Shown here piece by piece: positions 8,335-31,650 of a stretch of 64,000 bases of DNA (positions within the stretch are counted from its first letter, which is position 1; the number at the start of each line of letters is the position of its first letter). Source of the stretch: Niallia circulans (GTDB lineage: Bacteria > Bacillota > Bacilli > Bacillales > Cytobacillaceae); assembly GCF_003726095.1 (NCBI RefSeq), contig NZ_CP026031.1, forward strand, positions 3,286,001-3,350,000. Reading direction: 5' to 3'. The notes below the pieces were generated by a model that saw only the letters and a list, made by a program, of their open reading frames with translations, had not been told where the DNA came from and ran no database searches. A program made the position numbers and the translations under genes.

Positions 8335-11166
8335 ATGAAGGAATTTGATTACAAGAAAAGTTTAAGGAATCACCAAAAACGTAAACGAGTACAAACGAAG
8401 AAAATTCTTGTTTCAACTGTTGTGGCTTCAACATTAGTAGTTAGTAGTCTTCCATCAATCCCAATTGGAAACCTATTAATCAAACCACAGTACACTGTAT
8501 CCGCAGCAAGTCTAGGAGAAGTTCAGTTATTAACAGATGTAGATGTTACAGCTGAATTAACAGAAAACACAGATAATTACAACTTAGCTCTTGGTTTATC
8601 TGGGGTTGGATTAGTAGATGCAGAGTTGTTTAATCCTGATCGAGTAGCTGTGTTTTATGCGCCAGATCTTGCTGGAAAATTAGAAGTAACTGAACCAGCA
8701 AATGTAAGAGTAGAGATTCTACCAATTACAATGGATAACTTACCTGCCCTTTCTAATGGAATAGATTTATTAATGGGCAGTGTAAATAATGTATTTTCAA
8801 CTTTAGTTTCATCAGTTGGTGATTTAGTAAACAATCCAATTACTGGACGACTAGTAAGCGTTGAAGGATTAGACGAGTTAGAATCATCAATCGAGGCACT
8901 AAACAATATAAATGATGCTCTAGAAGATTTATTAGCTTACGAAGATCAAGTGGATGTAACGGTGAATCCAGACGGTAGCCTAGTTGTTAATTTCAGTGAT
9001 GGATTAGGAAACCATCTTGAAACCGCTGTTAAAGATGTTGTTCTTAAACTATTAAATGATTTAACTGATTCCATTAATGCACTAGAAATATCTGGTATTG
9101 CAGGTTCTTTAATTGATCCTATTTTAACTCCTGTACAAGCATTAACTACTCCTATTCAAGATCTATCCAATCAACTACTCAATGGTTCGATTGACATAGC
9201 TAATGATCTTGCAGGTGTTCAAGTTATTGGAGAAACAACCGTTTCATTAAATGCTACTGTTCCTAAGCCAGCAGGAGTAGAAGGCTCTGTTACGATTCAG
9301 GGCGCTGGTGTAAGCACCACAACTATCGATGCTCAATTATTAAGCAACTTAGAAGATTCAGATACTGTTGTATTTAACGAAGAAGGCGACGCTGATGCCG
9401 ATGCGGACGCTGATGCTGATGCCGACGCCGATGCGGACGCTGATGCTGATGCTGATGCCGACGCCGATGCCGACGCTGATGCGGACGCCGATGCCGACGC
9501 TGATGCCGATGCCGACGCCGATGCCGATGCCGACGCTGATGCGGATGCGGATGCGGATGCGGACGCTGATGCGGACGCGGACGCTGATGCGGACGCGGAC
9601 GCTGATGCGGACGCGGACGCTGATGCGGACGCGGACGCCGACGCTGATGCCGATGCCGATGCCGACGCCGATGCTGATGCCGATGCCGATGCTGATGCTG
9701 ATGCCGATGCTGATGCCGATGCCGATGCTGATGCCGATGCCGATGCCGATGCTGATGCGGACGCTGATGCCGATGCCGATGCTGATGCCGATGCCGATGC
9801 TGATGCGGACGCTGATGCCGACGCTGATGCCGATGCCGATGCGGACGCTGATGCGGACGCCGATGCCGACGCTGATGCCGATGCCGACGCCGATGCTGAT
9901 GCCGATGCCGACGCTGATGCCGATGCTGATGCCGATGCCGATGCTGATGCCGATGCCGATGCTGATGCCGATGCCGATGCGGATGCGGACGCTGATGCCG
10001 ATGCCGATGCTGATGCCGATGCCGATGCTGATGCGGACGCTGATGCCGACGCTGATGCCGATGCGGATGCGGACGCTGATGCGGACGCCGATGCCGACGC
10101 TGATGCCGATGCGGACGCGGACGCTGATGCCGACGCGGACGCCGACGCTGATGCCGACGCTGATGCCGACGCTGATGCCGACGCTGATGCCGACGCTGAT
10201 GCCGATGCGGATGCCGATGCCGATGCTGATGCCGACGCTGATGCCGATGCTGATGCCGACGCTGATGCCGACGCTGATGCTGATGCCGATGCTGATGCGG
10301 ACGCTGATGCCGACGCCGATGCCGATGCGGACGCTGATGCCGATGCCGATGCCGACGCTGACTCTGATGCCGATGCGGACGCCGATGCGGATGCTGATGC
10401 CGATGCCGACGCTGATGCTGATGCCGATGCCGATGCCGACGCTGATGCCGACGCCGATGCCGACGCTGATGCTGATGCGGACGCGGACTCTGATGCCGAC
10501 GCTGATGCTGATGCCGATGCCGATGCCGATGCCGACGCCGATGCCGATGCCGACGCCGATGCCGACGCTGATGCCGATGCCGACGCCGATGCCGACGCTG
10601 ATGCCGATGCGGACTCTGATGCTGACGCTGACTCTGATGCCGACGCCGATGCCGACGCTGATGCCGATGCCGATGCTGATGCCGACGCCGATGCCGATGC
10701 CGATGCCGACGCCGATGCTGATGCCGACGCCGATGCCGATGCCGACGCGGATGCCGATGCCGACGCTGACTCTGATGCCGATGCTGATGCCGATGCCGAT
10801 GCCGATGCGGACGCCGATGCTGATGCCGATGCGGACGCCGACGCTGATGCCGACGCTGATGCCGATGCGGACTCTGATGCCGACGCCGATGCTGATGCCG
10901 ACGCGGATGCCGATGCCGACGCCGATGCTGATGCCGATGCCGATGCCGACGCGGATGCTGACGCTGACTCTGATGCCGACGCTGACTCTGACGCCGATGC
11001 AAACTCTGATACGAATAACAACAAAGAATATATTTTAAATACTAATAATGGAGCACAAAAACTACCTAATACAGCTACTGCTATGTGGTCATATGGTCTG
11101 GCTGGAATAGGCGCTCTTTTAAGTGGTATAGCATCGAGAATCTTTGGTAGAAGAAAACGTCAATAG
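8335..11166 (+). CDS. LPNTA-anchored surface protein with giant Asp-Ala dipeptide repeat
   Basis: The 943-residue protein has, in order: a long signal peptide (basic start [18 protein letters not shown], hydrophobic core about 25-45); an N-terminal region to about residue 351 resembling adhesive domains of Gram-positive surface proteins; an uninterrupted 538-residue array of Asp-Ala dipeptides with a few Asp-Ser (352-889); a short linker; and a cell-wall sorting signal. The signal has LPNTA, a hydrophobic helix and the tail FGRRKRQ. LPNTA is the known substrate motif of class D sortases, and such a sortase is encoded two genes downstream. The array is highly acidic and probably works as a charged stalk, like the Ser-Asp stalks of Sdr proteins, or as a cation-binding matrix. 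Ligand and role are unknown. Confidence 0.85.
9388..11001 (+). repeat. 1,614-bp GAY-GCN hexanucleotide array
   Basis: There are 269 consecutive six-base units encoding Asp-Ala, in which Asp uses GAT and GAC and Ala uses GCT, GCC and GCG. GCA appears only in the last unit. Eight units read GACTCT (Asp-Ser), all between 10360 and 10989. Their start-to-start spacings are 126, 126, 18, 138, 102, 96 and 18 bp, which suggests duplication of larger blocks. The array is much more GC-rich than its surroundings. It keeps several other frames open on both strands by composition only. Such arrays are prone to length change and to assembly collapse. Confidence 0.95.
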
Positions 11167-15512: not shown

Positions 15513-16958
15513 TCACAAATCGCCTATGCTCTTAAGCTCGAAAGGAGAACCGTCCCTCTCATTCTCTCCTGGCACCACAATTCTTCCGATTGGTTGGCTG
15601 ATGATTTGCCCATTTTCCATTACTTTTGTTCCGCGGACAATGGTGGCGACTGGCATTCCTGTAATAGGTGTTTGGTTGTATGCTGTTACCTTGCTTTTGC
15701 TGTGGAGCTCTTCTCTTTTAATGGTATGTTTTTTCTTCATATCTACTATGGTAATATCTGCATCGGTTCCTACTTGTAACGACCCTTTTTGCGGGTAGAT
15801 TCCATATTGCTTTGCTGGATTTTCAGAAAGAAGTTTGCAGGCATCGACTAAAGAAATCTTCTCTTCACTTACTGCGTTTAATAGTAGTGGCGCCAATGTT
15901 TCAACCCCACACATTCCAGCAGGGATATCCCATAAGCTGCCATCCTTTTCTTCTTCGGTATGAGGAGCATGGTCAGAGCAGACAACCGTTACGGTACCAT
16001 CTTGAATCCCTCTCCACAGCTCTTCCTGATCCTTTTTATATTTAATAGGCGGATATACCTTCATCTGCGGACCAACTCTTTCATAATCCTCATTGGATAA
16101 AAAGAGATAATGCGGACATGTTTCTGATGTAATATTTGTATAGCCATCTGTTTGCGCTTGTCTTATTAGCTTTACCCCTTCTCCTGTACTGACATGAAGA
16201 ATATGCAGTCGAGTGCCAAGATTTTTCGCCAATGCAATCCCAGATTGAATGGTCATTTCCTCGGCTAAATTCGGGCGTCCTTGCAGAAGTGCCTCATAAT
16301 CTCTTTTCCCAGAAGCTTCTACTTCCTCTGTCAACCGTTGGATTATTTGATTATTTTCCGCATGAATAGCAAGAATTTGTCCCGTTTTTTGAACTTCTCG
16401 GAAAATACTATAAACCTCTCCATCTGAAAGCGGCGGAATGACACCTTTGTCTCCATCCTTATAGTTATACATCAACTGATAAGTCTCTTTATTAATGGCA
16501 TAGCCCCAGAAAAACTTAAAGCCAATCACCCCAGCCTGATGCAGTGGAACGATATCCTCTCGGTTAGCATCCCCTAAGCAAATTCCCCATATAGCGAAAT
16601 CCACATGTGCTTTAGCCGTGAGATTTTTCTTTTGTTTCTCAAAATTTTCGACATTATTAATAGGAGGATTAGTGTTCGGCATTTCAAACACAGTCGTAAT
16701 CCCACCTGCCGCTGCAGCTTGGGTGCTATAATAAAAATCTTCTTTATACGTTGGACCTGGATCCCTTGAATGTATATGGGTATCCATAAAGCCCGGACAC
16801 ACATATAACCCTTCTCCATCTGTTACCTCTAGCACTTCTCCCGCTAATTCATCCTGAGTGATGGCCGCAATCTTTCCATCTTTAATATAGAGATGCCCTT
16901 TTTCAAATCCATTTCCGGTATATAAATAGCCGTTTTTAATAACATGATCCCACAACAT
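15513..16958 (-). CDS. dihydroorotase-like cyclic amidohydrolase
   Basis: The protein has about 481 residues in the amidohydrolase superfamily (dihydroorotase, allantoinase, hydantoinase). PGFMDTHIHSRDPG carries the HxH metal ligands; FKFFWG holds the Lys expected to be carboxylated; HAEN, HILHVS and CSDHAPHT supply the remaining metal and catalytic residues. DHAPHT and DPG favour dihydroorotase or allantoinase. I start at ATG 16958, which follows GGAGTGGAGAGT. The frame is open further upstream only through a short tandem repeat (17015-17067). It is the last gene of a leftward unit with PyrD-like, PyrK-like and carbamoylase genes. Proposed role: opening of dihydroorotate to N-carbamoyl-aspartate during orotate breakdown. 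The C-terminus runs into a short GC-rich repeat at 15544. Confidence 0.8.
   Translation of the reverse strand: MLWDHVIKNGYLYTGNGFEKGHLYIKDGKIAAITQDELAGEVLEVTDGEGLYVCPGFMDTHIHSRDPGPTYKEDFYYSTQAAAAGGITTVFEMPNTNPPINNVENFEKQKKNLTAKAHVDFAIWGICLGDANREDIVPLHQAGVIGFKFFWGYAINKETYQLMYNYKDGDKGVIPPLSDGEVYSIFREVQKTGQILAIHAENNQIIQRLTEEVEASGKRDYEALLQGRPNLAEEMTIQSGIALAKNLGTRLHILHVSTGEGVKLIRQAQTDGYTNITSETCPHYLFLSNEDYERVGPQMKVYPPIKYKKDQEELWRGIQDGTVTVVCSDHAPHTEEEKDGSLWDIPAGMCGVETLAPLLLNAVSEEKISLVDACKLLSENPAKQYGIYPQKGSLQVGTDADITIVDMKKKHTIKREELHSKSKVTAYNQTPITGMPVATIVRGTKVMENGQIISQPIGRIVVPGENERDGSPFELKSIGDL
15544..15556. repeat. short intergenic-type repeat GGAGAACCGTCCC (copy 1)
   Basis: The related 14-mer GGAGGAACCGTCCC recurs at 42426-42439, in both cases at the 3' end of a leftward gene. 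Here it codes for part of the last residues of the amidohydrolase (ERDGSPFE). Confidence 0.5.
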
Positions 16959-17014
16959 ACTCTCCACTCCTTTTTTATATGAAAAAATCGATTGATCAAC
17001 CAATGCGGCGAAGA

Positions 17015-17067
17015 TATCAGCCAAACTTTGGGGGTTATCAGCCAAAACGCCTTGCTTATCAGCCAAA
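17015..17067. repeat. three direct repeats of TATCAGCCAAA at 21-bp period
   Basis: TATCAGCCAAA occurs at 17015-17025, 17036-17046 and 17057-17067, spaced exactly 21 bp, with a degenerate fourth unit to the left. They lie between the PyrD-like gene and the start of the amidohydrolase. On the minus strand they would encode LAD-containing heptapeptides, but I regard the region as intergenic. Confidence 0.75.
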
Positions 17068-17082
17068 CACCCCTACATCCGA

Positions 17083-17994
17083 CTACCGAACCACCACTCC
17101 ACCAATAATCTCTTGTATATCCTTTATTCCATGTGCCTGCATATAGGCTTCCATTTCGTTGCGGATCGTTATCATTGCTTCTGGATCGACGAAGGAAGCT
17201 GTGCCAATTTGTACAGCGGACGCACCGGCGAGCATTAATTCGATGGCATCCTCTCCATTCATGACGCCTCCGCATCCTATAATCGGAAGGGAAGTTGCCT
17301 GATACACTTGGTAAACCATTCGGACAACGAGGGGCAAAATAGCTGGGCCGGAATAGCCGCCCATTACATTGCTGATCTTCGGTTTTCTAGTATGAACATC
17401 AATAGACATAGCCAAAAATGTGTTGGAAACTGTTAAAATATCAGCGCCGGCTGCTTCACAAGCTTTGGCAATCTCCACAATACTTGTTACATTAGGAGAT
17501 AACTTCGGAATGAGCGGCTTATTTGTCGTCTTTCGTACCTTGCTTACTAATTCATGCGAGATGGATGGATCCATGCCAAACGCCATCCCATTATTTTTCA
17601 AATTGGGACAGGAAATATTTAATTCAATGGCATCCACCTCGTCCATAGCACCGAGCTCTGCGCTAACCTCCACAAATTCCTCGATGCTGTCTGCTGACAC
17701 ACTAGGGATAAGAGGAGTCGAAAAAGCTGCATAAAAGGGGATTGTCTTTTCTTTAAAATACGTTAATCCCTCACTTTGAATCCCAATCGAATTAATCATG
17801 CCACCAGCCTTTGTTTCACAAATACGAGGGGTAGAGTTGCCTGTTCGCCGATTTTTGGTAATGCTTTTGGGAATAATGGCCCCAATCTGATTAATATCAA
17901 TATAATTAGTCATTTGTTCCGCAAATGTTCCAGACGCTGGCATAACCGGATTTTTCAAATGAAGATTGCCTAATGTTACTTCCAAGCCACTCAT
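17083..17994 (-). CDS. pyrD: dihydroorotate dehydrogenase, PyrD (class 1B catalytic subunit)
   Basis: The 303-residue flavoprotein shows class 1 signatures: NPVMPASGTF near the N-terminus, the SIGIQSEG loop, the active-site motif ELNISCPNLKNNGMAFG with the catalytic Cys, and the FMN-phosphate loop IIGCGGVMNGEDA. Class 1B enzymes work with a PyrK subunit, encoded immediately upstream; the ATG overlaps the PyrK stop in ATGA. Residues before this ATG in the open frame belong to PyrK. In biosynthesis the pair oxidises dihydroorotate with NAD. The same reaction runs backwards with NADH in orotate fermenters. Missing pyrB, carAB, pyrE and pyrF, together with the carbamoylase and transporter, argue for a catabolic role here. 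Confidence 0.85.
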   Translation of the reverse strand: MSGLEVTLGNLHLKNPVMPASGTFAEQMTNYIDINQIGAIIPKSITKNRRTGNSTPRICETKAGGMINSIGIQSEGLTYFKEKTIPFYAAFSTPLIPSVSADSIEEFVEVSAELGAMDEVDAIELNISCPNLKNNGMAFGMDPSISHELVSKVRKTTNKPLIPKLSPNVTSIVEIAKACEAAGADILTVSNTFLAMSIDVHTRKPKISNVMGGYSGPAILPLVVRMVYQVYQATSLPIIGCGGVMNGEDAIELMLAGASAVQIGTASFVDPEAMITIRNEMEAYMQAHGIKDIQEIIGGVVVR

Positions 17995-18776
17995 GCAAAT
18001 ACCACCTTTTCTAATGGAAAGACTGGTCCTTCCATACAAATCCGGACCGGTCGGATGCGTTCCTCTTCTTCAATCTGACAGACACATCCATAGCAAGAAC
18101 CAATCCCGCATCCCATATTTTCTTCCAAGGCGATTTCCGCAAAAAGCCGATGTTCATATGCTAATTCCTTCATTAATTTAGATAGTCTTCTTGATCCACA
18201 TGTATAGATACTATCTATCTTTTTTTCACTTATCCATGTTTCTGCTAAAAGTTTTACACAACTAGGATCACTCGTTCCAGCTTCATCATTTACAAACACA
18301 GCCTCCACACCAGCTGCCTTTAACTCCGCTTCCACTAAATAATCTTCTTTTGTTCTAGCACTGACAATCGCAAAACACGAAATATTCTTACTTTTCAGCT
18401 TGAAAGCAAGAGCGGAAAGGGTGGCAATTCCTACACCTCTAGCAACAATAAGAATATTTTCACTTCCTTCCGCTATACTGAATCCCTTCCCTAATGGACC
18501 AAGTATATCCAGCGTCTCTTCCGACTTTCGCTCCGCTAAAGCCTTCGTCCCAACCCCTTTTACTAAATAAAGAAACTCCAATGTGCTTTCTGCTTCATTG
18601 ATGCGAAAAATACTAAGTGGTCTGCGTAACAAGGGCTTAGGTCCTTCACAGCATTTGATATGAAAAAATTGACCCGCTTGAACTGGGAATAGCTGCTGAT
18701 TGGGAACTTTTACTTTTAAATGAAAATATCGCTTGCTTACTTGCTTGTTAAATATTATTTCTGCTTTCACTGCCAT
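17991..18776 (-). CDS. pyrK: dihydroorotate dehydrogenase electron-transfer subunit, PyrK-like
   Basis: The 261-residue protein has a ferredoxin-reductase-like FAD domain (AGQFFHIKC, LLRRPLSIFRI), an NAD-binding domain (LIVARGVGIATLSAL, YTCGSRRLSKLM) and a C-terminal 2Fe-2S site, GCGIGSCYGCVC followed by a later Cys. It passes electrons between NAD(H) and the FMN of the PyrD subunit, whose gene overlaps its stop by 4 bp. RVGIATLSAL has GVGIAT where many PyrK have GGGIGT, a mild divergence from the biosynthetic type. It is the third gene of the IclR-headed operon. Confidence 0.85.
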   Translation of the reverse strand: MAVKAEIIFNKQVSKRYFHLKVKVPNQQLFPVQAGQFFHIKCCEGPKPLLRRPLSIFRINEAESTLEFLYLVKGVGTKALAERKSEETLDILGPLGKGFSIAEGSENILIVARGVGIATLSALAFKLKSKNISCFAIVSARTKEDYLVEAELKAAGVEAVFVNDEAGTSDPSCVKLLAETWISEKKIDSIYTCGSRRLSKLMKELAYEHRLFAEIALEENMGCGIGSCYGCVCQIEEEERIRPVRICMEGPVFPLEKVVFA

Positions 18777-18798
18777 CCTTTTTCTCTCCTTTCTTTAA

Positions 18799-20037
18799 TT
18801 AATACACTGCTATTGCCTGCTGTAATACAGCTGCCTCTAACACATCAATACCGATTAAAATATCGTCTAAATCGGTATGTTCATCTGGATGATGACTAAT
18901 TCCGTTTAAGGACGGAATAAAGATTAACCCAACCGGACCGAAGGAAGTCATATTCATGGCATCATGCCCAGCGCCACTTTGCATCCATTGATAAGGAAGC
19001 TTTTTTTCCAGACAAATTTTTTCTATTTGAAGAGTAAGCTCTTTTGATAACTGAACAGGCTCTTCCTTGCTAATCTCCTGTGAAGTTATCGTTAAACCTC
19101 GTCTTTCCTGAACATCCTCCATTTTTTTTAAAAGAGCGGTGAGTACTTTATTTCTAGAGGCAGTCGAAGTGGAGCGAATATCGACTTTCATTTCGACTGT
19201 ACCTGGCACCACATTCATCGCCCCCATTGGAATGGAAAGCACCCCGATTGTGGCGACGGTCCCGTTATGCTGTTCTTCTTTCGCTGCTTCTTCTAAAGCG
19301 AGCGCTAGTTCACTTGCCCCAAGCAATGCATCCTTGCGCATATTCATCGGTGTTGTCCCAGAATGAGAAGCAGCGCCTTTTACTTCAATAATGAAGCGGA
19401 CGGGTGCGGCAATCCCTGTTACAATCCCAATTTTCTTATTGGTATTCATCAGAATCGGACCTTGCTCAATATGTAATTCAAAGAATGCTTGAAAACGTTC
19501 TGTCGCTCTGCTTGCCAAATCCAATTGATCAAATCGCAAGGCACAAAGGGAAAGAGCTTTTTCAAAGGTAATTCCATCCTTATCCTTCAGATGTTGATAC
19601 TTCTCCTTTTGCAGTGTTCCTGCCATCGCCTTGCTGCCAACCGTTGATACTCCGAATCGAGACGATTCTTCACAGGCGAAAGAAATAATTTCAATCGGAT
19701 GTTCCGTTTCCAGATTTTGTTCATTGAGGCGTTTTATCACTTCTAAACCTGCTGTAACTCCTACTACGCCATCGTATTTACCGCCTTGGTAAACGGTATC
19801 TAGATGGGATCCTATGACAACTGGCGGAAGATCTTTGTGCTTTCCTTCTCTTCTCGCAATAATATTGCCGCAATAATCCATTCTAATTTCTAGACCCTCA
19901 TTTTTGCACAAACGCATAAAAGCATGACTGCATGCCTGCTCCTCATTTGTAAAGGCCACTCTGGTGATTCCTTTCGTTCCCGAATTATATTGATTCATAT
20001 TATTCAACAGTTCTTCATATTTTCTTTTTCGATCCAT
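18799..20037 (-). CDS. M20-family N-carbamoyl-L-amino acid hydrolase (ureidosuccinase-like)
   Basis: The protein has about 412 residues and the two-zinc M20 pattern of the carbamoylase/allantoate amidohydrolase group: GSHLDTVYQGGKYDG, then FACEESSRFG, FFELHIEQGP, SGAGHDAMNM and GISHHPDEHTD. These enzymes release ammonia and CO2 from N-carbamoyl amino acids or ureido compounds. With dihydroorotase and dihydroorotate dehydrogenase beside it, N-carbamoyl-L-aspartate is the most economical substrate, giving L-aspartate. I start at ATG 20037 because AAGGAGATAGA precedes it; an upstream GTG at 20064 lies before that site. Allantoate or hydantoin-derived substrates remain possible. Confidence 0.8.
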   Translation of the reverse strand: MDRKRKYEELLNNMNQYNSGTKGITRVAFTNEEQACSHAFMRLCKNEGLEIRMDYCGNIIARREGKHKDLPPVVIGSHLDTVYQGGKYDGVVGVTAGLEVIKRLNEQNLETEHPIEIISFACEESSRFGVSTVGSKAMAGTLQKEKYQHLKDKDGITFEKALSLCALRFDQLDLASRATERFQAFFELHIEQGPILMNTNKKIGIVTGIAAPVRFIIEVKGAASHSGTTPMNMRKDALLGASELALALEEAAKEEQHNGTVATIGVLSIPMGAMNVVPGTVEMKVDIRSTSTASRNKVLTALLKKMEDVQERRGLTITSQEISKEEPVQLSKELTLQIEKICLEKKLPYQWMQSGAGHDAMNMTSFGPVGLIFIPSLNGISHHPDEHTDLDDILIGIDVLEAAVLQQAIAVY

Positions 20038-20082
20038 CTTTCTATCTCCTTGATTATGGGCCACGGAGCTCCGCCCTTCTCT

Positions 20083-20856
20083 TTATAAGCGAATAGAACT
20101 TAATAGATGCATAGATTTCATATGTTCACTTGCCTCTTTGGCCACTTCGTTTATTTGTTTCACTAATGTTGCTTGCTGCATCGCGATATAGTCACTTTCG
20201 CCAACAATGCTGATGCTGACATTCGTTTTTTTATCATCATAAAATATTGGCGCGGAAATAGCAGATACCCCCATTTCCAATTCTTCAATGCAAAATGCTA
20301 GTTGGGAATGATAGATTTCTTTTAATTCTTTTTTGATGTCGAGAGGATTTGTTTTCGTATAGGGGGTGGTAGCTTCAAAGGGTGTCTCATGCACCATTCT
20401 CTCAACTATCGCTTCCTCTTGATACGCCAAAATTACTTTTGCTGCCGCGGCACTATGAATTGGCATCCGCTGTCCCACATGAACAAAATATTTATTGCGC
20501 AGATCTGATGGCTGATGAGTGTAGACACAATAGACATCGCCTCCATGATAACGACAAATGAAGGTATAGAGATTAGTCTCAATAGATAATTTTTCCCCAT
20601 ATCTGCCCAGTAGTTTAATCGGATCCTGCAACCTTAAAAACTGACTGCCCCACAGCATCGTTTTCGGTCCTAGATAATATTGTTTAGTCGTTTTATCTTG
20701 GACAACAAGCTGATGTTCACACATACTTGTAAGCATTCGATGAATCGTACCCTTACTTAAATCCGTCTCTCTCGCAAGTTCACTGACACCCATCCCTATA
20801 TTGGCATTAGAGGAGAGGCAGTCCATTACATCTGTAAAACGATTTAACCATTCCAA
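20083..20856 (-). CDS. IclR-family transcriptional regulator of the pyrimidine catabolic unit
   Basis: The 257-residue protein has an N-terminal winged helix (ANIGMGVSELARETDLSKGT, then HRMLTSM) and an IclR effector domain (VGQRMPIHSAAAAKVILAY, then EELEMGVSAISAPIF). The start is TTG at 20856, with GGGGA 8 bp upstream. It is the first gene of the leftward unit that continues with the carbamoylase, PyrK, PyrD and amidohydrolase genes. The palindrome GGAACAATGTTCC lies about 37 bp upstream, and a close variant lies before the MFS gene. It therefore probably controls itself, the enzymes and the transporter. The effector may be orotate or a breakdown product. Confidence 0.85.
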   Translation of the reverse strand: MEWLNRFTDVMDCLSSNANIGMGVSELARETDLSKGTIHRMLTSMCEHQLVVQDKTTKQYYLGPKTMLWGSQFLRLQDPIKLLGRYGEKLSIETNLYTFICRYHGGDVYCVYTHQPSDLRNKYFVHVGQRMPIHSAAAAKVILAYQEEAIVERMVHETPFEATTPYTKTNPLDIKKELKEIYHSQLAFCIEELEMGVSAISAPIFYDDKKTNVSISIVGESDYIAMQQATLVKQINEVAKEASEHMKSMHLLSSIRL

Positions 20857-20892
20857 GCCATGTCTCCCCTTTTAAAATAAGTTTCTCTGAGC

Positions 20893-20905
20893 GGAACAAT
20901 GTTCC
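20893..20905. promoter_or_regulatory. IclR-type operator upstream of the regulator/enzyme unit
   Basis: GGAACAATGTTCC is a perfect 13-bp palindrome with one central base. The flank TGA(G/A)CGGAAC is shared with the site at 22335-22347. Confidence 0.65.
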
Positions 20906-20919
20906 ATTTTTTTAAAATA

Positions 20920-20949
20920 AGAGAAGGTGCCATCAAAACATCCTTCTCT
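20920..20949 (-). terminator. terminator of the MFS transporter gene
   Basis: AGAGAAGG and CCTTCTCT form the stem with a 14-base loop. On the minus strand it is followed by TATTTTAAAAAAAT. It separates the transporter transcript from the enzyme unit. Confidence 0.65.
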
Positions 20950-20977
20950 CTTAAAATATAGATTGTAACCTTAATTC

Positions 20978-22213
20978 TTAAACAATCTCTTTATCCTTTG
21001 ATTCTGGAATTAAAAAGATAAATGCTAATGCAGATAAAATGTAAACACCGGACAATAAGCTAAGTGCATAGCTTAAAGAATGATTAAGAGAAATATAACC
21101 AATAATAAATGGCGCAAATCCCGCGATTGCTCTCCCTACATTAAAAATAATGTTTTCTGCAGTGGAACGGACTTCTGTATTATAATGCTCTGCTAGCAGG
21201 GCTCCATATCCACCCATCATCCCATTTACAAAGAATCCTAATACGCCGCCAAGAAGCAATAAAGCTGCTGTCGATGTTACTTGGAAATAGACCCAAACAA
21301 TAATTGCCGCCGCAATCAGGAAAGTGATATAAGATGGTCTGCGTCCAATTTTGTCTGCCAAATAACCAAAGATTAAAATCCCTAATATCATCCCGACAAT
21401 CGTTGTTACCGTCCATAAAGTTGTTTTATTAAAATTGTAACCTAGTTCCGAAGCAAGCATCGTCGGCATCCACGTCATAATGCCATAAAAGCCAAAGTTT
21501 TGAACACTTGTGGCGATAATTAAGCCAATCGTTATCTTCGTTGTTTCCTTTGAAGCAAATAATTGTCCAATGGCAATCTTATTTTTATTTTCTTCTTTAA
21601 GTTTTGTCCAAATCTCTGGTTCCTTTAAATTTTTGCGGGACCAAAACGCAAAAATCGCTGGTACTACCCCTGCAAGGAATACACCATGCCACCCGAATTT
21701 CGGTGCAATAAACAATACCGTTAAAGTTGCAAGAACAATCCCTAACTGAAATCCGACCGCTACAACAGATGTAGCACGAGAGCGATATTTCTTCGGCCAA
21801 GTCTCACTGACAAGCGTCATCCCAATTCCAAATTCGCCCCCAAGCCCTAAACCAGCTAAAAAGCGGAAGATCGCAAATGTTTCTAAATTAGGAGCTAAAG
21901 CACATAAACCTGTAAAAACAGAAAATATTAAAATAGTCCAAGTAAACACCCGTACTCGCCCAAATTTATCCGCCATTACTCCAAATACAATTCCACCAAT
22001 TACAGCTCCAAGCAATGTAATGGTAGAAAGGCTTCCCGCCTGCGCTTGATTAATGCCAAAAAAAGCAATAATGAGCGGCAGCGTATAAGCCAAAATCATC
22101 ATATCTAGCCCATCCATGGCATATCCAACCGTTGAAGACCATAGCGTTTTCCATTGATAACCCGTTATCTTCTTTTCCGGTACCTCTGAATTTTCATATG
22201 CTTTTATATTCAC
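20978..22213 (-). CDS. MFS transporter, aromatic-acid/H+ symporter type (candidate orotate importer)
   Basis: The 411-residue protein has 12 predicted membrane spans. MFS motifs are FGVMADKFGRVRV (loop 2-3), FRFLAGLGLGGEFG (TM4) and GYLADKIGRRPSY (loop 8-9); YAMDGLDMMIL in TM1 carries the Asp typical of aromatic-acid symporters (AAHS type). The start is GTG, preceded by GGGGAGGAG. The gene is upstream of, and co-oriented with, the IclR/carbamoylase/PyrKD/amidohydrolase unit and carries its own IclR-type operator at 22335-22347. The substrate is therefore probably a pyrimidine carboxylate such as orotate. Direct evidence for the substrate is lacking. Confidence 0.8.
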   Translation of the reverse strand: MNIKAYENSEVPEKKITGYQWKTLWSSTVGYAMDGLDMMILAYTLPLIIAFFGINQAQAGSLSTITLLGAVIGGIVFGVMADKFGRVRVFTWTILIFSVFTGLCALAPNLETFAIFRFLAGLGLGGEFGIGMTLVSETWPKKYRSRATSVVAVGFQLGIVLATLTVLFIAPKFGWHGVFLAGVVPAIFAFWSRKNLKEPEIWTKLKEENKNKIAIGQLFASKETTKITIGLIIATSVQNFGFYGIMTWMPTMLASELGYNFNKTTLWTVTTIVGMILGILIFGYLADKIGRRPSYITFLIAAAIIVWVYFQVTSTAALLLLGGVLGFFVNGMMGGYGALLAEHYNTEVRSTAENIIFNVGRAIAGFAPFIIGYISLNHSLSYALSLLSGVYILSALAFIFLIPESKDKEIV

Positions 22214-22334
22214 TGAATAACTCCTCCCCTTAACTTAAATATGATCCCTTCTATTCTGTCATCTCTCTATCAAAACCTGCTCCTCTCCTAAAATAATCTT
22301 TATATGTCCTTCTAACCGCATTGTTTCACTGAAC

Positions 22335-22347
22335 GGAACGATGTTTC
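22335..22347. promoter_or_regulatory. IclR-type operator upstream of the MFS gene
   Basis: GGAACGATGTTTC matches the operator at 20893-20905 in 11 of 13 positions and shares the TGAxCGGAAC flank. It lies about 120 bp before the MFS start. The rest of 22214-22519 is AT-rich with no other structure seen. Confidence 0.55.
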
Positions 22348-23145: not shown

Positions 23146-24093
23146 TTAAATTAACCAGGTTATAAAGATTGGTAATGTAATTAATGATAATATAGTGCTA
23201 ATCACGAAAGAAGATGCTGTTTCCGTTGTTAGCGAATCGAATCTAGTTGAAATCATCGCTGCAACGGCTGATCCTGGAAATGCTACTAATAAAATAGCTT
23301 TTACAGTATCGGCGTGGTTTAATCCTACTAGATGAGCAACCAATATCATAAATAATGGTAGCACTATCACTTTTAATAGCGAAATACCAAAAGCAACTCC
23401 TTGGAAATTGATTTTGCGAATACCTACGGTTACCCCTACCGCAAATAACGCAACACCAGATGTTACAGAGCCAATCTGATCAAGCGCACTTTGTATTATT
23501 TCTGGTGAGTGGAAACCACATAGTGTCAATACAACTGCTAGTAATGGAATACATGCAAGTGGTTCACTTAATCCATGTAAAATAATACCTATTGTGCTTC
23601 CCTTCTCATCCTTTGCTTTCCCTTTATTGCTTTCGCCAATATTCCCCACAATTGTTGCTAAAGGATCTAAAATGGCATTAACCACAATTCCTGTAATCGC
23701 AATAGGAATAGCAACTTCTTGTTGTCCGAATAAACTACCAAGCACAGAAATCCCCATAAAGGCAAATGCCGGCTGCGTAGAATTTAACGAGAACATCGAA
23801 GCTTTTGTAACATCATATTTAAAAACAAACTTCGAAATAAGTAGTAATATGACATAAAAACCAATAATACCAATAAACATATTTAAGAAAAACGGCCATT
23901 GATCGATTAGTGTTTGCTTCGATGTGGTTGTAATTCCAATAAATAAATGCGCTGGTAATGCAAATTTTGTTACTAATGTATTGAGACCTTTAGAAGAATC
24001 AGCATTAAAAATGTTTAAATAGCCACCTAAATATCCTAAAATAATGGTAAAAAAGATGGGGATTAATACTAAAAATATATGCCCAAGAGACAT
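23146..24093 (-). CDS. AEC-family permease (malate/organic anion type)
   Basis: The 315-residue protein has about ten hydrophobic spans and the typical inverted-repeat layout of the auxin-efflux-carrier family (FTIILGYLGGYLNIF, then KFALPAHLFIGI; MISTRFDSLTTETASSFV near the C-terminus). Malate permeases of the MleP type belong to this family. The gene lies 90 bp after the malic/malolactic enzyme gene and is co-oriented, so the pair probably imports and uses malate. A hairpin at 24137-24167 between them may reduce expression of the permease. Confidence 0.8.
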   Translation of the reverse strand: MSLGHIFLVLIPIFFTIILGYLGGYLNIFNADSSKGLNTLVTKFALPAHLFIGITTTSKQTLIDQWPFFLNMFIGIIGFYVILLLISKFVFKYDVTKASMFSLNSTQPAFAFMGISVLGSLFGQQEVAIPIAITGIVVNAILDPLATIVGNIGESNKGKAKDEKGSTIGIILHGLSEPLACIPLLAVVLTLCGFHSPEIIQSALDQIGSVTSGVALFAVGVTVGIRKINFQGVAFGISLLKVIVLPLFMILVAHLVGLNHADTVKAILLVAFPGSAVAAMISTRFDSLTTETASSFVISTILSLITLPIFITWLI

Positions 24094-24136
24094 GGTAGTT
24101 CACTTCACTTTCCCTTTGTTCGTTTCTAAGCTGTTT

Positions 24137-24167
24137 GAATCGTCTTACAGTGATTGCAAGACGATTC
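24137..24167. terminator. hairpin between malic enzyme and permease genes
   Basis: GAATCGTCTT and AAGACGATTC form a 10-bp stem with an 11-base loop. The T-rich tail is on the plus-strand side, so as a leftward terminator it would be weak; it may act as an attenuator or an mRNA-stabilising structure. Confidence 0.5.
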
Positions 24168-24183
24168 TATTTATTTACTTGTC

Positions 24184-25881
24184 TTATTTTAATGTTATTG
24201 TTTTATATTCTGGCTTCCACATATAGTCATTAAGCGCTTGTTCTATATCCTCTATTTTCGCTTGCGCAATTCCTTCTTTGATTGCAGCTTCCGCTACTGC
24301 TATAGCTACGGCCTTAGATACCTCTTGTAATTTATCAATGGAAGGGAGAATTGATGCCCCAAGCGAGCTGCTATCAGCTAATGATGCAACTGCATTTGCG
24401 GAGGCCGCAAACATTCCTTTTGAAATAATAGCAGCTTTTGCAATAATTGCTCCCAACCCTAGTCCTGGAAATACAAATGCATTATTGGATTGACCAATTT
24501 CATATGTGACACCGTTATATTCCACGTCTTTAAATGGACTACCAGTAGCAATTAGTGCTTTCCCATCTGTCCATTTAATAATGTCTTCTGGTGTAGCTTC
24601 TGCTAATGGAGTTGGATTAGACATTGGCATGATAATCGGACGCTCTACATGCTTGGCCATCTCTTTTACCACCTCTTCAGAGAAGGCACCTGCTTGTCCA
24701 GAAGTACCAATAAGAATAGTCGGCTTTACTTTTCTAATAACTTCTAGAAGCGGAATAATATTTTCCTCGTTTCTTTCCCAATCTGCTACTTCTTTTGCAG
24801 AACGAACATATGGTTGTTGGAATGCTACAACATCTGCTGTTTCGTCTGTTAATAACCCACGGAAGTCAATTGGCCAAAAGCGATTATACGCTTCTTCTCT
24901 TGAAACTCCCTCTAATACCATTGTTTCTACCATTTGATCTGCGTTCCCAATACCAGCAGCACCTGGTCCAAAGATAACAACTCGCTGATCAGAAAGAGAC
25001 TCTTTCGTAACTTTTAAAGCAGACATAATTGCCGCCAAAGTAACAGCACCTGTTCCTTGGATATCATCATTGAAAGTAAGAATTTTATCACTGTATTTTT
25101 CCATGATTGCACGAGCATTTACATTACCAAGGTCTTCCCAATGAAGGAGAACATCTGGAAAAGTTTTCAATGCATTTTCCACAAATCGTTCAATAAACTG
25201 ATCATAGCTTTTGCCGCGAACACGACTAAACTTGTTACCAAGATATAATGGATCTTGAATTAAAGCTTCGTTGTTCGTTCCCACATCCAACACAATTGGA
25301 AGCACTCTACTAGGATCTATGCCAGCTGCTGCCGTATAAACAGCTAGTTTACCGATTGCAATATTAATACCACCGACACCTTGATCTCCAATACCAAGAA
25401 TACTTTCTGAATCGGTTACTACAATTAAATCAATTCCATCACTAGGAATATTTAAATTGTTAAAAGCTTCTTCCATGTTCTCCATATTATCGATAGATAA
25501 GTATAATCCACCAGGAATATGGTATTCATGAGAGTACTTTTGAATCACTTCGCCAACAGTTGGAGTGTAAATAATGGGCAGCATTTCGTTCAGGTTATCC
25601 TGAAGTACTTTATAAAATAGAACAACGTTTCGATTATACAAATCATATAAAAGACCGTTTTTACGTAAATCACTTGTTTGGGCAGAAAATTGTTCGTAAA
25701 TACGTTTTGCTTGTTCTTCTAATGTTAGAATTTGAGTTGGTAATAAACCATTTAAACCAAGCTCTTGACGTTCTTCTTTCGAAAAAGCTACGCCTTTATT
25801 AAGAAAAGGATTTAATAAAAGCTGTTTTCCTTTTAAATTTGTTTGAATAACATCTTGTTTACTAATTGTACCTATTGCCAT
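24184..25881 (-). CDS. NAD-dependent malic enzyme or malolactic enzyme
   Basis: The 565-residue length is typical of the large malic enzyme family. Visible signatures are [51 protein letters not shown], the metal-binding [11 protein letters not shown], the NAD-binding [18 protein letters not shown], and [14 protein letters not shown]. Malic enzymes decarboxylate malate to pyruvate with NAD; malolactic enzymes of the same family give lactate. Sequence inspection alone does not separate them, and the neighbouring AEC (MleP-like) permease is compatible with both. Start: ATG after AGAAGGAGCAAGAC. A strong promoter lies at 26106-26134, giving a leader of about 215 nt. Confidence 0.85.
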
Positions 25882-28795: not shown

Positions 28796-28852
28796 TTTGT
28801 CCTTCAGAGAGAGACAGAATTAGCTTTTTGTCTTTTTATGGTGCCTGTCACC
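28796..28852. repeat. intergenic repeat family A, copy 2
   Basis: TTTGTCCTTCAGAGAGAGACAG is followed by GTCTTTTTATGGTGCCTGTCACC (28830-28852). The right block overlaps and encodes the last residues of the Rieske protein. Confidence 0.85.
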
Positions 28853-29824
28853 AGGAGTTGTTCCATTCTCCACCCCAAGTTCCTGCAGCCATCTACGGTA
28901 GCTGATCGTCAGGGCGTCTGACTTAAGATGCAATTCCGCCTGTAGATCCAATGGCAATAATTCCGGCTTTTGGCTTTGAACAATATCTAAATCTTGATAA
29001 AAGATTTTATCCTGGAATTCGATAAATGGTTCATCTGGTTTATCTAAATCATAGTTTCTTGTTAGCAGCATAAAGGCTTTCGACTGTTCGTTATCTTCTT
29101 GATTGACGACAAGCAAAATCGTCAACGCGTCTTCTGATCCATCTGTTGTTTTCGTGAAACGAGCAGTTGTTGGATTTAGAATTTCATACACATAATTGGC
29201 ATATCCACCTTTTGAGCGTCCATCTGGATTGGGCTGGTAGACAGGAATTTTGCTTGTAATAAAACGGTTATCAATAAAATCCACTTTATAATCGACCACT
29301 TCCGCATGGTCCTCATCCCCAAGCAAGCCTTCATGAACAAACATAAGATGAGAAACATCAAGGAAGTTTTCAATGATTCGCGGTGCATTTGCTTTTACCT
29401 CATAAGGACCACATATTGCTGTTCGATATCCTTCTGTACTATATTCAGGATAAGAAATAAGCGGTGCTGGATCGTCCCCCAGATTCACCCAAATAAGTCC
29501 AAGATATTCCTCACAATGATAAACAGTTGCTTTCGCTTTTCTTGGAATAGCTCGTCCATTTGGCAATGCCGGTATCTTGACACATGCTCCTGCACAATCG
29601 TATTCCCAAGCATGGTATGCACAAACTAAATTCCCGTTTTTCACCTTACCAAGTGAAAGCGCCGCTCCTCTATGAATACACAAATCTTTAAAGGCATGAA
29701 CGCCCTTCTCATTTCGAAAAATGGCTACTCTTTCCCCAAGCACAAATACTTGTTTCGGATCATCCAGCAATTCCTCTGCTTTACATACTGGATGCCATTC
29801 ATTCCATAGTCTATCTTGTTGCAT
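28820..29824 (-). CDS. Rieske non-haem iron oxygenase, alpha subunit
   Basis: The 334-residue protein has an N-terminal Rieske domain with CIHRGAAL and CAYHAWEYD ligands for the 2Fe-2S cluster, then a catalytic domain where NFLDVSHLMFVHE supplies the Asp/His ligands for mononuclear iron. Length and layout fit single-component alpha subunits of the vanillate O-demethylase/N-demethylase type. No reductase gene is nearby. It follows an NCS2 purine permease 26 bp downstream and is preceded by a guanine riboswitch, so a purine or methylated purine is a candidate substrate. I start at ATG 29824 after AGGAGAGGCG. The C-terminal GDRHHKKTKS is encoded by an intergenic repeat, so the native end may have been lost. 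Confidence 0.8.
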   Translation of the reverse strand: MQQDRLWNEWHPVCKAEELLDDPKQVFVLGERVAIFRNEKGVHAFKDLCIHRGAALSLGKVKNGNLVCAYHAWEYDCAGACVKIPALPNGRAIPRKAKATVYHCEEYLGLIWVNLGDDPAPLISYPEYSTEGYRTAICGPYEVKANAPRIIENFLDVSHLMFVHEGLLGDEDHAEVVDYKVDFIDNRFITSKIPVYQPNPDGRSKGGYANYVYEILNPTTARFTKTTDGSEDALTILLVVNQEDNEQSKAFMLLTRNYDLDKPDEPFIEFQDKIFYQDLDIVQSQKPELLPLDLQAELHLKSDALTISYRRWLQELGVENGTTPGDRHHKKTKS

Positions 29825-29849
29825 AATCGCGCCTCTCCTGTTCCTATTT

Positions 29850-31208
29850 TTAGTTAACATTTACCGTTGGCTTGTTTGTATTTACACGCTCTCCTTGTTT
29901 TTGCGGCAGAACTAGATTAAGGATTAATGCAGCAATGGCTCCTATAGCTGTCCCTGATGATACAAAGTAAGTTACAATTTCAGGCAGGCCATTTAACACA
30001 TTTGCCGGCATTAACACAGCAAATAAAGCAAGCATAATTGGAACTCCAATAACAATCATATTTCTCTCCGTAAATTCCAATCCTTTCACGACTTTAAATC
30101 CATTCATCATAATGATTACGCATAAAATCGCAAATACACTATTAATCACCACACTAGGGATGCAAGCAATCAAACTCGTCAGCTTTGGCATCATTCCTAG
30201 AATAACTAACATAATTCCACCCATAATAATTGGCTTACGACTCTTTACTCCTGTAATCGCAATAATACCAGCATTAGAGGAATAGCCCGTTACTGGTGTT
30301 CCGCCAAAGAAAGAACCGACAAAACAGCCTAACCCTTCTCCAAATGCGCCGCCATTTAAACGCTTATCATTCAGCTCTTCGCCCGTTACATTGCTTACAG
30401 TAAACCATGTTCCCGTCGTTTCAATAGTGACAATTAAATAAACTACAATCATAACAAGAATGGCATGAACATTGAATTGTGGCGCTCCAAATGCAAATAG
30501 ACTTGGCATTTGAAACCAGCTTGCATTTTCTAATGAGGCAAAACTAACTAAACCGAAGAAAGAAGCAACAAGCGAGCCTAATCCTAACGCTAAGATAACC
30601 GATACTACCTTTATATATTTCCATTTAGATTTAGCCTTTTCCCCTACGTACATACAGAAAATCAATACAGCCGCTGTAACGGTCGCAACCAAGATATTTT
30701 CGCCAAAACTACCCTCTGCTGTATAAATAGAATTAATCGCACTCGGCATTAAAGAAATCCCTACAACCACAATAACGGTCCCAGCAACAATCGGCGGGAT
30801 GACTTTTCTAACCACTTTACTATAGAGTTTAAGCGGATAACCAAGTAAGGCAATAATTAACGCACCAGGTATTAAGCTGCCTATCATCGCTCCAATTCCT
30901 GATGTCGTTCCAATTGCTGCAAGTGCACTTAATGGTACAAAGGAAGGTCCTTGCATAACAGGAAGCTTCATTGCAAAGCCTGCTTGAATAATCGTTGCAA
31001 TTCCACATGCGATAAAAGTCATTTGGATCAGCAATGAACTATCCTGTACAGAAAAGGATAATAAACCTGCCAAGATAATCGGTGGGATAAACAAATCCAT
31101 CGCTAATATTTGCTGAACTCCTAGAAAGATCGATTTGCCGACAGTAATTTCTTCTTTTCCTTCCTGTATCTTCCCCTTTGCTTCCAAATCCTTTGCCATC
31201 TTCTCCAT
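29850..31208 (-). CDS. NCS2-family purine permease
   Basis: The 452-residue protein has 12-14 predicted spans and nucleobase-ascorbate-transporter signatures: MQGPSFVPLSALA (TM3), IETTGTWFTVSNVTG and GTPVTGYSSNAGIIAITG. The family moves xanthine, urate, uracil or guanine with protons or sodium. The 5' leader carries a C74-type purine riboswitch (31405-31475) and a terminator (31280-31334), so guanine or hypoxanthine should shut it off. It is co-oriented with the Rieske gene and divergent from guanine deaminase. Import of a purine for breakdown is the expected role. Confidence 0.85.
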   Translation of the reverse strand: MEKMAKDLEAKGKIQEGKEEITVGKSIFLGVQQILAMDLFIPPIILAGLLSFSVQDSSLLIQMTFIACGIATIIQAGFAMKLPVMQGPSFVPLSALAAIGTTSGIGAMIGSLIPGALIIALLGYPLKLYSKVVRKVIPPIVAGTVIVVVGISLMPSAINSIYTAEGSFGENILVATVTAAVLIFCMYVGEKAKSKWKYIKVVSVILALGLGSLVASFFGLVSFASLENASWFQMPSLFAFGAPQFNVHAILVMIVVYLIVTIETTGTWFTVSNVTGEELNDKRLNGGAFGEGLGCFVGSFFGGTPVTGYSSNAGIIAITGVKSRKPIIMGGIMLVILGMMPKLTSLIACIPSVVINSVFAILCVIIMMNGFKVVKGLEFTERNMIVIGVPIMLALFAVLMPANVLNGLPEIVTYFVSSGTAIGAIAALILNLVLPQKQGERVNTNKPTVNVN

Positions 31209-31279
31209 TCCAGTACCCCCTATTGATGATACTTCCTATAATCTTTGTTTCTTCGTTAATAAGTAAATTCACCGAACAG

Positions 31280-31334
31280 AAAAAGCTCGAAGTACATACC
31301 TTCCTTAACAAAAGAAAAGCATGCACTTCGAGCC
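31280..31334 (-). terminator. riboswitch-controlled intrinsic terminator
   Basis: On the minus strand GCTCGAAGTGCATGC pairs with GGTATGTACTTCGAGC around a loop of about 20 bases and is followed by TTTTTC. It lies between the purine riboswitch and the NCS2 start. A further small stem (GACAT/ATGTC) lies at 31366-31391. Confidence 0.75.
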
Positions 31335-31404
31335 CTTTATAATCAAAGTATGACAAGAATAGACATCTCCCTATAAAGGGGCGTTATGTCCATTTTATCT
31401 CTGC

Positions 31405-31475
31405 TTTTCATAGTCAGTTTATTTACGGTAAACAGGTAGAAACTTGTAGGCCATATCCCTACGATTATATGAAAA
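31405..31475 (-). ncRNA. purine riboswitch, guanine class
   Basis: On the minus strand the element contains the conserved blocks TATAATC, GATATGG, GTTTCTACC, CCGTAAA and GACTATGA, in the order of the xpt-type purine aptamer. Terminal arms TTTTCATA and TATGAAAA form P1. The specificity position in GACTATG is C, as in guanine/hypoxanthine sensors; adenine sensors have GATTATG. It controls the NCS2 permease/Rieske unit through the downstream terminator. Confidence 0.9.
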
Positions 31476-31650
31476 TACACTATTTTTTTTTGAATATTAT
31501 AGCGACCTGAAACCTTTTGCAACTTTCAAGCTCACCATCAACATTCACTTCATTTTTTAAAATACACAATAAATTTTTTTATTTACTAGTAATTATCAAC
31601 TTGCTACAATAACTATATTAACACAAAACACGAACATTAGGAAGGTGTTT

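Follow-up and report, generated by a model that had tools for sequence, protein, structure and literature searches.

The stretch analysed here, 64,000 nucleotides of Niallia circulans (hereafter the window; C1:3286001-3350000 of a single-contig genome of 5,175,203 bases, 5.18 Mb), raises the question of what a second set of dihydroorotate dehydrogenase-type genes does when it is packed together with a cyclic amidohydrolase (AH), an M20 hydrolase, an IclR-family regulator and a transporter of the major facilitator superfamily (MFS). Our analysis suggests that this block is very probably an orotate catabolic regulon, leading from orotate to aspartate. An earlier, sequence-only reading had described a leftward enzyme unit behind an IclR gene with an MFS gene next to it, and all six genes were found as stated: they occupy 15513-22213, all on the minus strand, and run MFS, IclR, M20, PyrK-like, PyrD-like and AH in the order of transcription. 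The features of the locus are as follows.

15513..16958, minus strand: dihydroorotase-like cyclic amidohydrolase (AH), 481 amino acids (aa) from its ATG; longest open reading frame (ORF) 15513-17066
17083..17994, minus strand: PyrD2, predicted catalytic flavin mononucleotide (FMN) subunit of a class-1B dihydroorotate dehydrogenase, 303 aa from its ATG; longest ORF to 18039
17991..18776, minus strand: PyrK2, predicted flavin adenine dinucleotide (FAD)/[2Fe-2S] electron-transfer subunit (PF10418, 47.6 bits)
18799..20037, minus strand: M20 N-carbamoyl-amino-acid amidohydrolase, candidate ureidosuccinase, 412 aa from its ATG; longest ORF to 20064
20083..20856, minus strand: IclR-family regulator, first gene of the enzyme unit (PF01614, 83.3 bits; PF09339, 39.8 bits)
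20893..20905, no strand: palindrome GGAACAATGTTCC, putative IclR operator of the enzyme unit (exact-pattern search and conservation in relatives)
20978..22213, minus strand: MFS transporter, aromatic-acid:H+ symporter (AAHS) type, which probably imports orotate (TIGR00895, 331.6 bits)
22335..22347, no strand: palindrome GGAACGATGTTTC, putative IclR operator of the transporter gene (exact-pattern search and conservation in relatives)

For the AH, PyrD-like and M20 genes, the starts backed by ribosome-binding sites sit slightly downstream of the longest-ORF starts; the AH was accordingly placed at the ATG at 16958, behind GGAGTGG, and not at the TTG at 17066, while the PyrD2 start overlaps the pyrK-like stop as ATGA. 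The claim that pyrB, carAB, pyrE and pyrF are missing from the locus was borne out by tblastn with the genome's own pyr proteins (E <= 1e-4), which gave no match to pyrB, carA, carB, pyrE, pyrF or pyrR in the whole 64-kb window; a distant pyrP-like permease (28%) lies within it at 29850-31208. The same reading had made its case depend on a separate biosynthetic operon, and such an operon is present at C1:678-690 kb, with the order pyrR-pyrP-pyrB-pyrC-carA-carB-pyrK-pyrD-pyrF-pyrE (genes named by resemblance). Its pyrK (L006:8991-9766, C1:686990 onward; here and below, L numbers are our labels for loci and G numbers for genomes) is broken in frame in the assembly, with an open frame of 186 aa compared to 267-300 aa in five relatives, and this reflects either a real mutation or a sequencing error. 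The PyrD, PyrK and AH of the window are 46, 38 and 31% identical to the PyrD, PyrK and PyrC of that operon.

The four enzyme genes M20-PyrK2-PyrD2-AH were found together and in the same order in 22/22 loci (the window's own and 21 others retrieved by PyrD similarity), and because of this constancy the comparison indicates that the arrangement is not due to chance. In one of these loci, L108, the ORF picker had missed PyrK2, which tblastn shows in L095 at the same place. Among 193 genomes of the family, 9 carry PyrD2 at E <= 1e-90; of 397 genomes sampled from the order, at least 14 do so at E <= 1e-100. For the AH the figures are at least 21 of 398 genomes sampled from the class (E <= 1e-120) and at least 2 of 398 from the phylum (E <= 1e-110). 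The own genome is included in each figure, and the counts for order, class and phylum are lower bounds, with four to five candidates scored per genome. A scan of the named genome contigs with PyrD2 yielded at least 50 loci with PyrD at no more than 49% (one partial match at 56%), and among the matches listed there was no M20 match at E <= 1e-10 and no four-gene core. A search of plasmids with the AH yielded 1043 records, all below 60% identity, and thus no close relative.

What accompanies the core varies. An IclR gene and an MFS gene are attached in 9/22 loci and a PucR-like gene with a three-part TRAP (tripartite ATP-independent periplasmic) transporter in 13/22, never both, the module families having been verified on one or two members each (PucR-like on two). 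Both transporter kinds, MFS (AAHS) and TRAP, carry organic acids. A CapA/MslH-like gene is found in 14/22 loci (two members checked) and a nitroreductase gene in 11/22 (three checked); the window's own locus has neither. For CapA, the own genome contains a 40-residue match with an internal stop and one weak 38-bit match, and G166 and G167 carry a full-length homologue (50-51%) away from the operon. The CapA/PGA_cap protein (L078:10586-11893 and 13 other loci) is related to the lasso-peptide tryptophan epimerase MslH (8GQ9, 256 bits), and the nitroreductase (L101:5720-6469 and 10 other loci) is of the oxygen-insensitive kind, NF008033 being over its cut-off in the three members tested. Malic-enzyme and AEC-transporter genes next to the block (23146-25881) were considered as members of the unit and rejected, as they adjoin the operon in G167 and not in the stretches from G166 and G175 of the same genus.

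The first enzyme pair has the features of a class-1B dihydroorotate dehydrogenase. PyrD2 exceeds the cut-off of NF005574 (375.9 bits, cut-off 269) as well as that of TIGR01037, and scores 262.7 bits against PDB 1EP1. Seven residues, Lys58, Asn83, Asn141, Cys144, Asn146, Asn206 and Thr207, which we take to comprise the catalytic Cys and the contacts to orotate in the FMN barrel, are identical in 22/22 catabolic loci, and at each of these positions 42-44 of 44 other PyrDs have the same residue as PyrD2. PyrK2 supplies the expected partner: PF10418 and PF00970, the latter likewise over its cut-off, mark the FAD domain, and the [2Fe-2S] cysteines at 223, 228, 231 and 247 are kept in 21/21 aligned sequences (the L108 row being absent). 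Uracil reduction of the dihydropyrimidine dehydrogenase (PreA/PydA) type was considered and rejected in view of the PyrD2 residues, as E. coli PreA has Gly at 83 and Gln at 146 where PyrD2 has Asn; PyrD2 is moreover 303 aa long compared to 411 aa for PreA, with no ferredoxin tail. In the genome as a whole PF01180 gives only the two PyrDs and one weak match (29.7 bits, cut-off 27) covering a quarter of the model, so that no PreA-type enzyme is evident. In a tree of 67 rows, for which 43/50 genome-contig PyrDs were kept, the 22 catabolic PyrDs form one clade apart from the 44 others (support 100/98).

The identity of the AH is the more delicate matter. In the dihydroorotase of M. jannaschii, Arg60, Asn89 and His306 bind the alpha-carboxylate of the substrate and are described as invariant among dihydroorotases (PMC12809426); the E. 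coli equivalents are given as Arg20, Asn44 and His254 (PMC8659124). The M. jannaschii residues align with Arg101, Asn131 and His369 of the AH (517-aa numbering), and this trio is found in 38/38 AH homologues and in 34/34 reference dihydroorotases (the own PyrC plus 33 from genome contigs, where 37 loci gave a match and four were dropped for length or stops). A further row outside the 38, L147, shows the same three residues (as L173). The metal-site residues of a dihydroorotase, His97, His99, His235, His291 and Asp365, are also present in 38/38. In the allantoinase-like protein of the same genome the three carboxylate positions are occupied by Asn, Asn and Ser; because that protein aligns Asn at the second of these, Asn131 alone is not discriminating, and it is the Arg and the His that separate the dihydroorotase type from the allantoinase type. 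Both are missing from E. coli AllB and HyuA, and likewise from eight allantoinase-like rows (L174-L181, L175 being the own protein). Conversely, the AH does not show the allantoinase signature, in which the Arg is replaced by another residue and SDHSP lacks the second His. The curated dihydroorotase models give a mixed picture, the subfamily model TIGR00857 being exceeded (346 bits, cut-off 279) and the equivalogs among the best 25 of 65 matches being missed. The 38 AHs form one clade apart from type-I dihydroorotases and allantoinases in a 53-row tree, which used roughly one in three of the dihydroorotase rows and has HyuA, the archaeal row and the allantoinases on long branches.

The strongest new evidence for the dihydroorotase step is the presence of AH homologues in pyr operons that lack pyrC. 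In G641 and G627 an AH homologue ends the series pyrR-pyrP-pyrB-carA-carB-pyrK-pyrD-pyrF, and no pyrC match was found in the stretches examined. In G612 a pyrC-less pyr operon is directly followed by M20-PyrK2-PyrD2, an oppositely oriented PucR-like gene, an MFS gene and the AH; the arrangement in G593 is the same, but with pyrP unmatched. A genome-wide TIGR00857 search in these four genomes (completeness 79% for G641, 86% for G627 and 99% for G612 and G593) returned the AH as the sole match over the cut-off, in a search that a type-II PyrC might escape; the next-best matches are allantoinase-like by their residues, and G641 has one more weak match of 190 bits. In G339 the catabolic operon adjoins a pyr operon that has its own pyrC. 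In G206 (L109, L178), of the same genus as G339, nothing but the catabolic AH passes the TIGR00857 cut-off, and no pyrC was seen. With regard to the objection that the amidohydrolase might prefer hydantoins or allantoin, both the carboxylate residues and these operons point to a dihydroorotase, as far as sequence can tell.

More distant AH loci were also inspected, 17 of the 22 places beyond the own locus having been fetched (those left out are G865, G920, G762 and G904, all of one family, and G206, already in the set). All four core genes are present in nine of the 17, in varying order and with a PyrK of only 27% in L141, and two AHs lie in pyr biosynthetic operons. The AH members of L136, L137, L139, L140 and L148 have all three dihydroorotase residues, and their fetched stretches gave no PyrD, PyrK or M20 match.

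The last enzyme of the series belongs to the M20 carbamoyl-amino-acid hydrolase family: it scores 411 bits on the general carbamoyl hydrolase model TIGR01879 (cut-off 204) and 288 bits against the L-carbamoylase PDB 3N5F. On the assumption that ureidosuccinase (EC 3.5.1.7) is an M20 enzyme, its gene is a candidate for that function.

The proposal that the transporter and the enzymes form one regulon, made originally from two palindromes, was supported by the conservation of the motif. The exact pattern GGAACRATGTTYC has two sites in the 5.18-Mb genome, one upstream of iclR and one upstream of the MFS gene, and its backward control has none. The looser pattern GRAACNNNGTTYC is unspecific, as it occurs in 20 places compared to 13 for its backward control; among those 20, only 20893-20905 is a perfect GGAAC-N3-GTTCC. 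With up to one mismatch, GGAAC-N3-GTTCC was found in 12/14 regions upstream of iclR or MFS genes in seven IclR-module loci, as against 0/108 regions that precede other ORFs of these sequences; the motif having been derived from the window, the count is 10/12 without the window's own two regions. Four of the seven loci are from one genus and two from another, which amounts to about three independent lineages. As for the two regions missed, that of iclR in L076 has a full GGAAC-N3-GTTCC site once the orthologous start is used, and no operator-like site was found upstream of iclR in L107; L108 and L109, outside this count, have weaker sites only. Together with the IclR protein itself, these palindromes upstream of the target genes predict a local IclR regulon. 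The palindrome at 20893 had been flagged as a possible terminator, with a hairpin and a T run on the plus strand; this was rejected, as the genes run on the minus strand and no T run follows there. A promoter scan performed at chance level (22 found, 20.8 expected) and was not used.

Taken together, core conservation, the site residues of PyrD2 and the AH, and the separate pyr and puc-type genes support the proposed route from orotate through dihydroorotate and carbamoyl-aspartate to aspartate. The MFS protein would import orotate, PyrD2-PyrK2 would reduce it with NADH to dihydroorotate, the AH would open the dihydroorotate ring to N-carbamoyl-aspartate, and the M20 enzyme would hydrolyse the latter to aspartate, CO2 and ammonia. 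The net effect would be to run part of the pyrimidine synthesis route backwards; the irreversible M20 hydrolysis would make the route one-way and would pull orotate reduction. IclR may act at both palindromes, switching transporter and enzymes together. The substrate of each enzyme in vivo, the direction of flux, the inducer and the growth phenotype are those that we infer.

Several observations weigh against this interpretation. In NCBIfam, TIGR00857 is the only cut-off that the AH passes among the best 25 of 65 matches, those of the dihydroorotase equivalogs being missed there. The AllB allantoinase equivalog TIGR03178 is missed by less than 2 bits (356.1 bits, cut-off 357.85), and the homologue in the pyr operon of G641 passes it at 396.5 bits (341 on TIGR00857). 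Because a pyr-operon member exceeds the AllB cut-off, TIGR03178 evidently cannot tell an allantoinase from the AH lineage, and its names are untrustworthy either way. The nearest PDB classes of the AH are L-hydantoinase (308 bits), allantoinase (241) and dihydroorotase (210). The M20 protein exceeds NF006771, named allantoate amidohydrolase, at 474 bits (cut-off 399); its substrate is not readable from its sequence, and it is the least certain step of the pathway. The MFS protein, at 331.6 bits, is under the TIGR00895 cut-off of 418.6. Near its orotate site PyrD2 has Ile87 where the 44 other PyrDs have Leu, and Ser89 where nearly all have Asn. Among the 17 distant AH loci, one has only M20 adjacent and five have no M20, PyrK or PyrD nearby. 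The classical potential of the orotate/dihydroorotate couple is much higher than -470 mV. One review places it at about -470 mV, compared to -320 mV for the nicotinamide couple (PMC8097209), and that figure would disfavour an NADH-driven reduction of orotate without a downstream pull. On the sequence evidence, the orotate interpretation is well supported and not proven.

Of the other explanations, the one that survives best is that the cluster degrades another carboxylated pyrimidine or a hydantoin, such as 5-carboxymethylhydantoin or hydantoin-propionate. The M20 enzyme scores 411 bits on the model of ErtE, the N-carbamyl-L-glutamate amidohydrolase of the hydantoin-propionate route, and the AH 297-323 bits on ErtD; orotate breakdown would need neither the CapA/MslH-like gene (related to a C-terminal tryptophan epimerase) nor the nitroreductase of so many relatives. 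However, the ErtD and ErtE cut-offs are unmet (520 for ErtE), both accessory genes are missing from the window's own locus, hydantoin routes need no PyrD/PyrK, PyrD2 keeps its orotate site, and members of the AH family replace dihydroorotase in pyr operons, all of which makes this explanation an unlikely one.

Less probable still is that the block is a backup biosynthetic set of dihydroorotase and dihydroorotate dehydrogenase working in the anabolic direction. The AH homologues within the pyr operons of G641 and G627 and the broken frame of the own biosynthetic pyrK would fit such a role, but the intermediate would be destroyed by the carbamoyl-amino-acid hydrolase encoded in this unit, the window holds no match to pyrB or carAB while a pyr operon exists elsewhere, and the linkage to IclR and a transporter argues in the same direction; we consider it very improbable.

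The least credible explanation is an allantoin or purine degradation cluster misread as a pyrimidine one. The model scores do lean that way: in NCBIfam the AH and M20 score highest on models that bear the names allantoinase and allantoate amidohydrolase, the AH all but reaches the AllB cut-off and its G641 homologue passes it, and the alternative regulator in 13/22 loci is PucR-like in the two members tested. This explanation was rejected, as it has no use for PyrD/PyrK, the AH has none of the non-Arg, MPLN and SDHSP residues of the allantoinase-like proteins examined, and puc-type genes are located elsewhere in the genome: an amidohydrolase with allantoinase residues beside xanthine-dehydrogenase-type genes (pucH by resemblance) and another M20 gene next to PucR- and permease-like ones (pucF by resemblance).

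The preferred reading, orotate breakdown, has parallels among known systems. The orotate fermentation of Clostridium (Zymobacterium) oroticum is classical biochemistry of the 1950s and comprises the same proposed steps, with an NADH-linked flavin/iron-sulfur dihydroorotate dehydrogenase; the clostridial side is known from biochemistry, whereas genes are given here, in Bacilli and with IclR/MFS or PucR/TRAP modules, the likeness being one of steps. PyrD2-PyrK2 resembles the class-1B enzyme PyrDB-PyrK (PDB 1EP1-1EP3) in its subunits, orotate-site residues and PyrK cysteines, but PyrD2 falls in a separate clade and is linked to a carbamoyl hydrolase and a transporter instead of carAB/pyrB. With dihydroorotase (PDB 3MPG, 4YIW) the AH shares the carboxylate-binding trio of Arg, Asn and His; it differs in having Lys184, as carboxylated-Lys enzymes do, where 33/34 reference dihydroorotases carry Ser or Thr, in being nearer to L-hydantoinase and allantoinase overall, and in an unusual K-F/L/Y-FWGY loop. 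The reductive uracil pathway (PreA/PydA, dihydropyrimidinase, beta-ureidopropionase) follows the same logic of reducing the ring, opening it and removing the carbamoyl group, with the difference that PyrD2 is unlike PreA at 83 and 146 and that the AH residues are of the dihydroorotase and not the hydantoinase type. The ergothioneine side route of ErtD and ErtE (hydantoin-propionate, N-carbamyl-L-glutamate) also combines a cyclic amidohydrolase with an M20 carbamoyl hydrolase, and does so without a dehydrogenase pair. Other PyrD-like families, X1 and X2 included, are described near hydantoinase, M20 and xanthine-dehydrogenase genes in Barba et al. 2013 (PMC4016543). In the literature searched, by title and start of abstract, no paper on orotate-catabolic genes was found, a collection outside of which most subscription papers lie, so that absence from print is not claimed; the term ureidosuccinase had no occurrence among the matches listed there. 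The chemistry is old; the genes and their control appear to be little described.

Two other parts of the window may be mentioned. A Rieske oxygenase (VanA_C type), a xanthine/uracil-type permease and a divergent Amidohydro_1 protein lie together at 28820-33018, possibly a second locus for N-heterocycle catabolism. The 943-aa product of 8335-11166 combines an adhesive domain (PF20609) at its N-terminal side with a very long repeat of Asp-Ala and, close to its end, an LPNTA motif.

A broader scenario, which as a whole we regard as tentative and somewhat doubtful, is that of a patchy but widespread orotate-to-aspartate regulon in Bacilli, at the centre of which stands a dihydroorotase lineage that has gone unrecognised; this lineage, with its hydantoinase/allantoinase-like scaffold, would cross between breakdown and synthesis and would have taken over the role of pyrC in one family. 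The M20 gene would then be the missing ureidosuccinase gene, and the CapA/MslH-like protein might, as a metal-dependent epimerase, salvage dihydroorotate or carbamoyl-aspartate of the wrong configuration.

If orotate breakdown is indeed the function, a pathway that is known chiefly through the older biochemistry of clostridia would gain its genes, and a candidate would be at hand for ureidosuccinase. Judging by gene context, proteins that score best as allantoinase or as dihydroorotase-like, together with a second PyrD/PyrK pair, probably serve breakdown, and counting such copies of pyrD, pyrK and pyrC as biosynthetic would mislead. Where the AH lineage substitutes for pyrC, the switch between catabolic and anabolic use would become directly testable.

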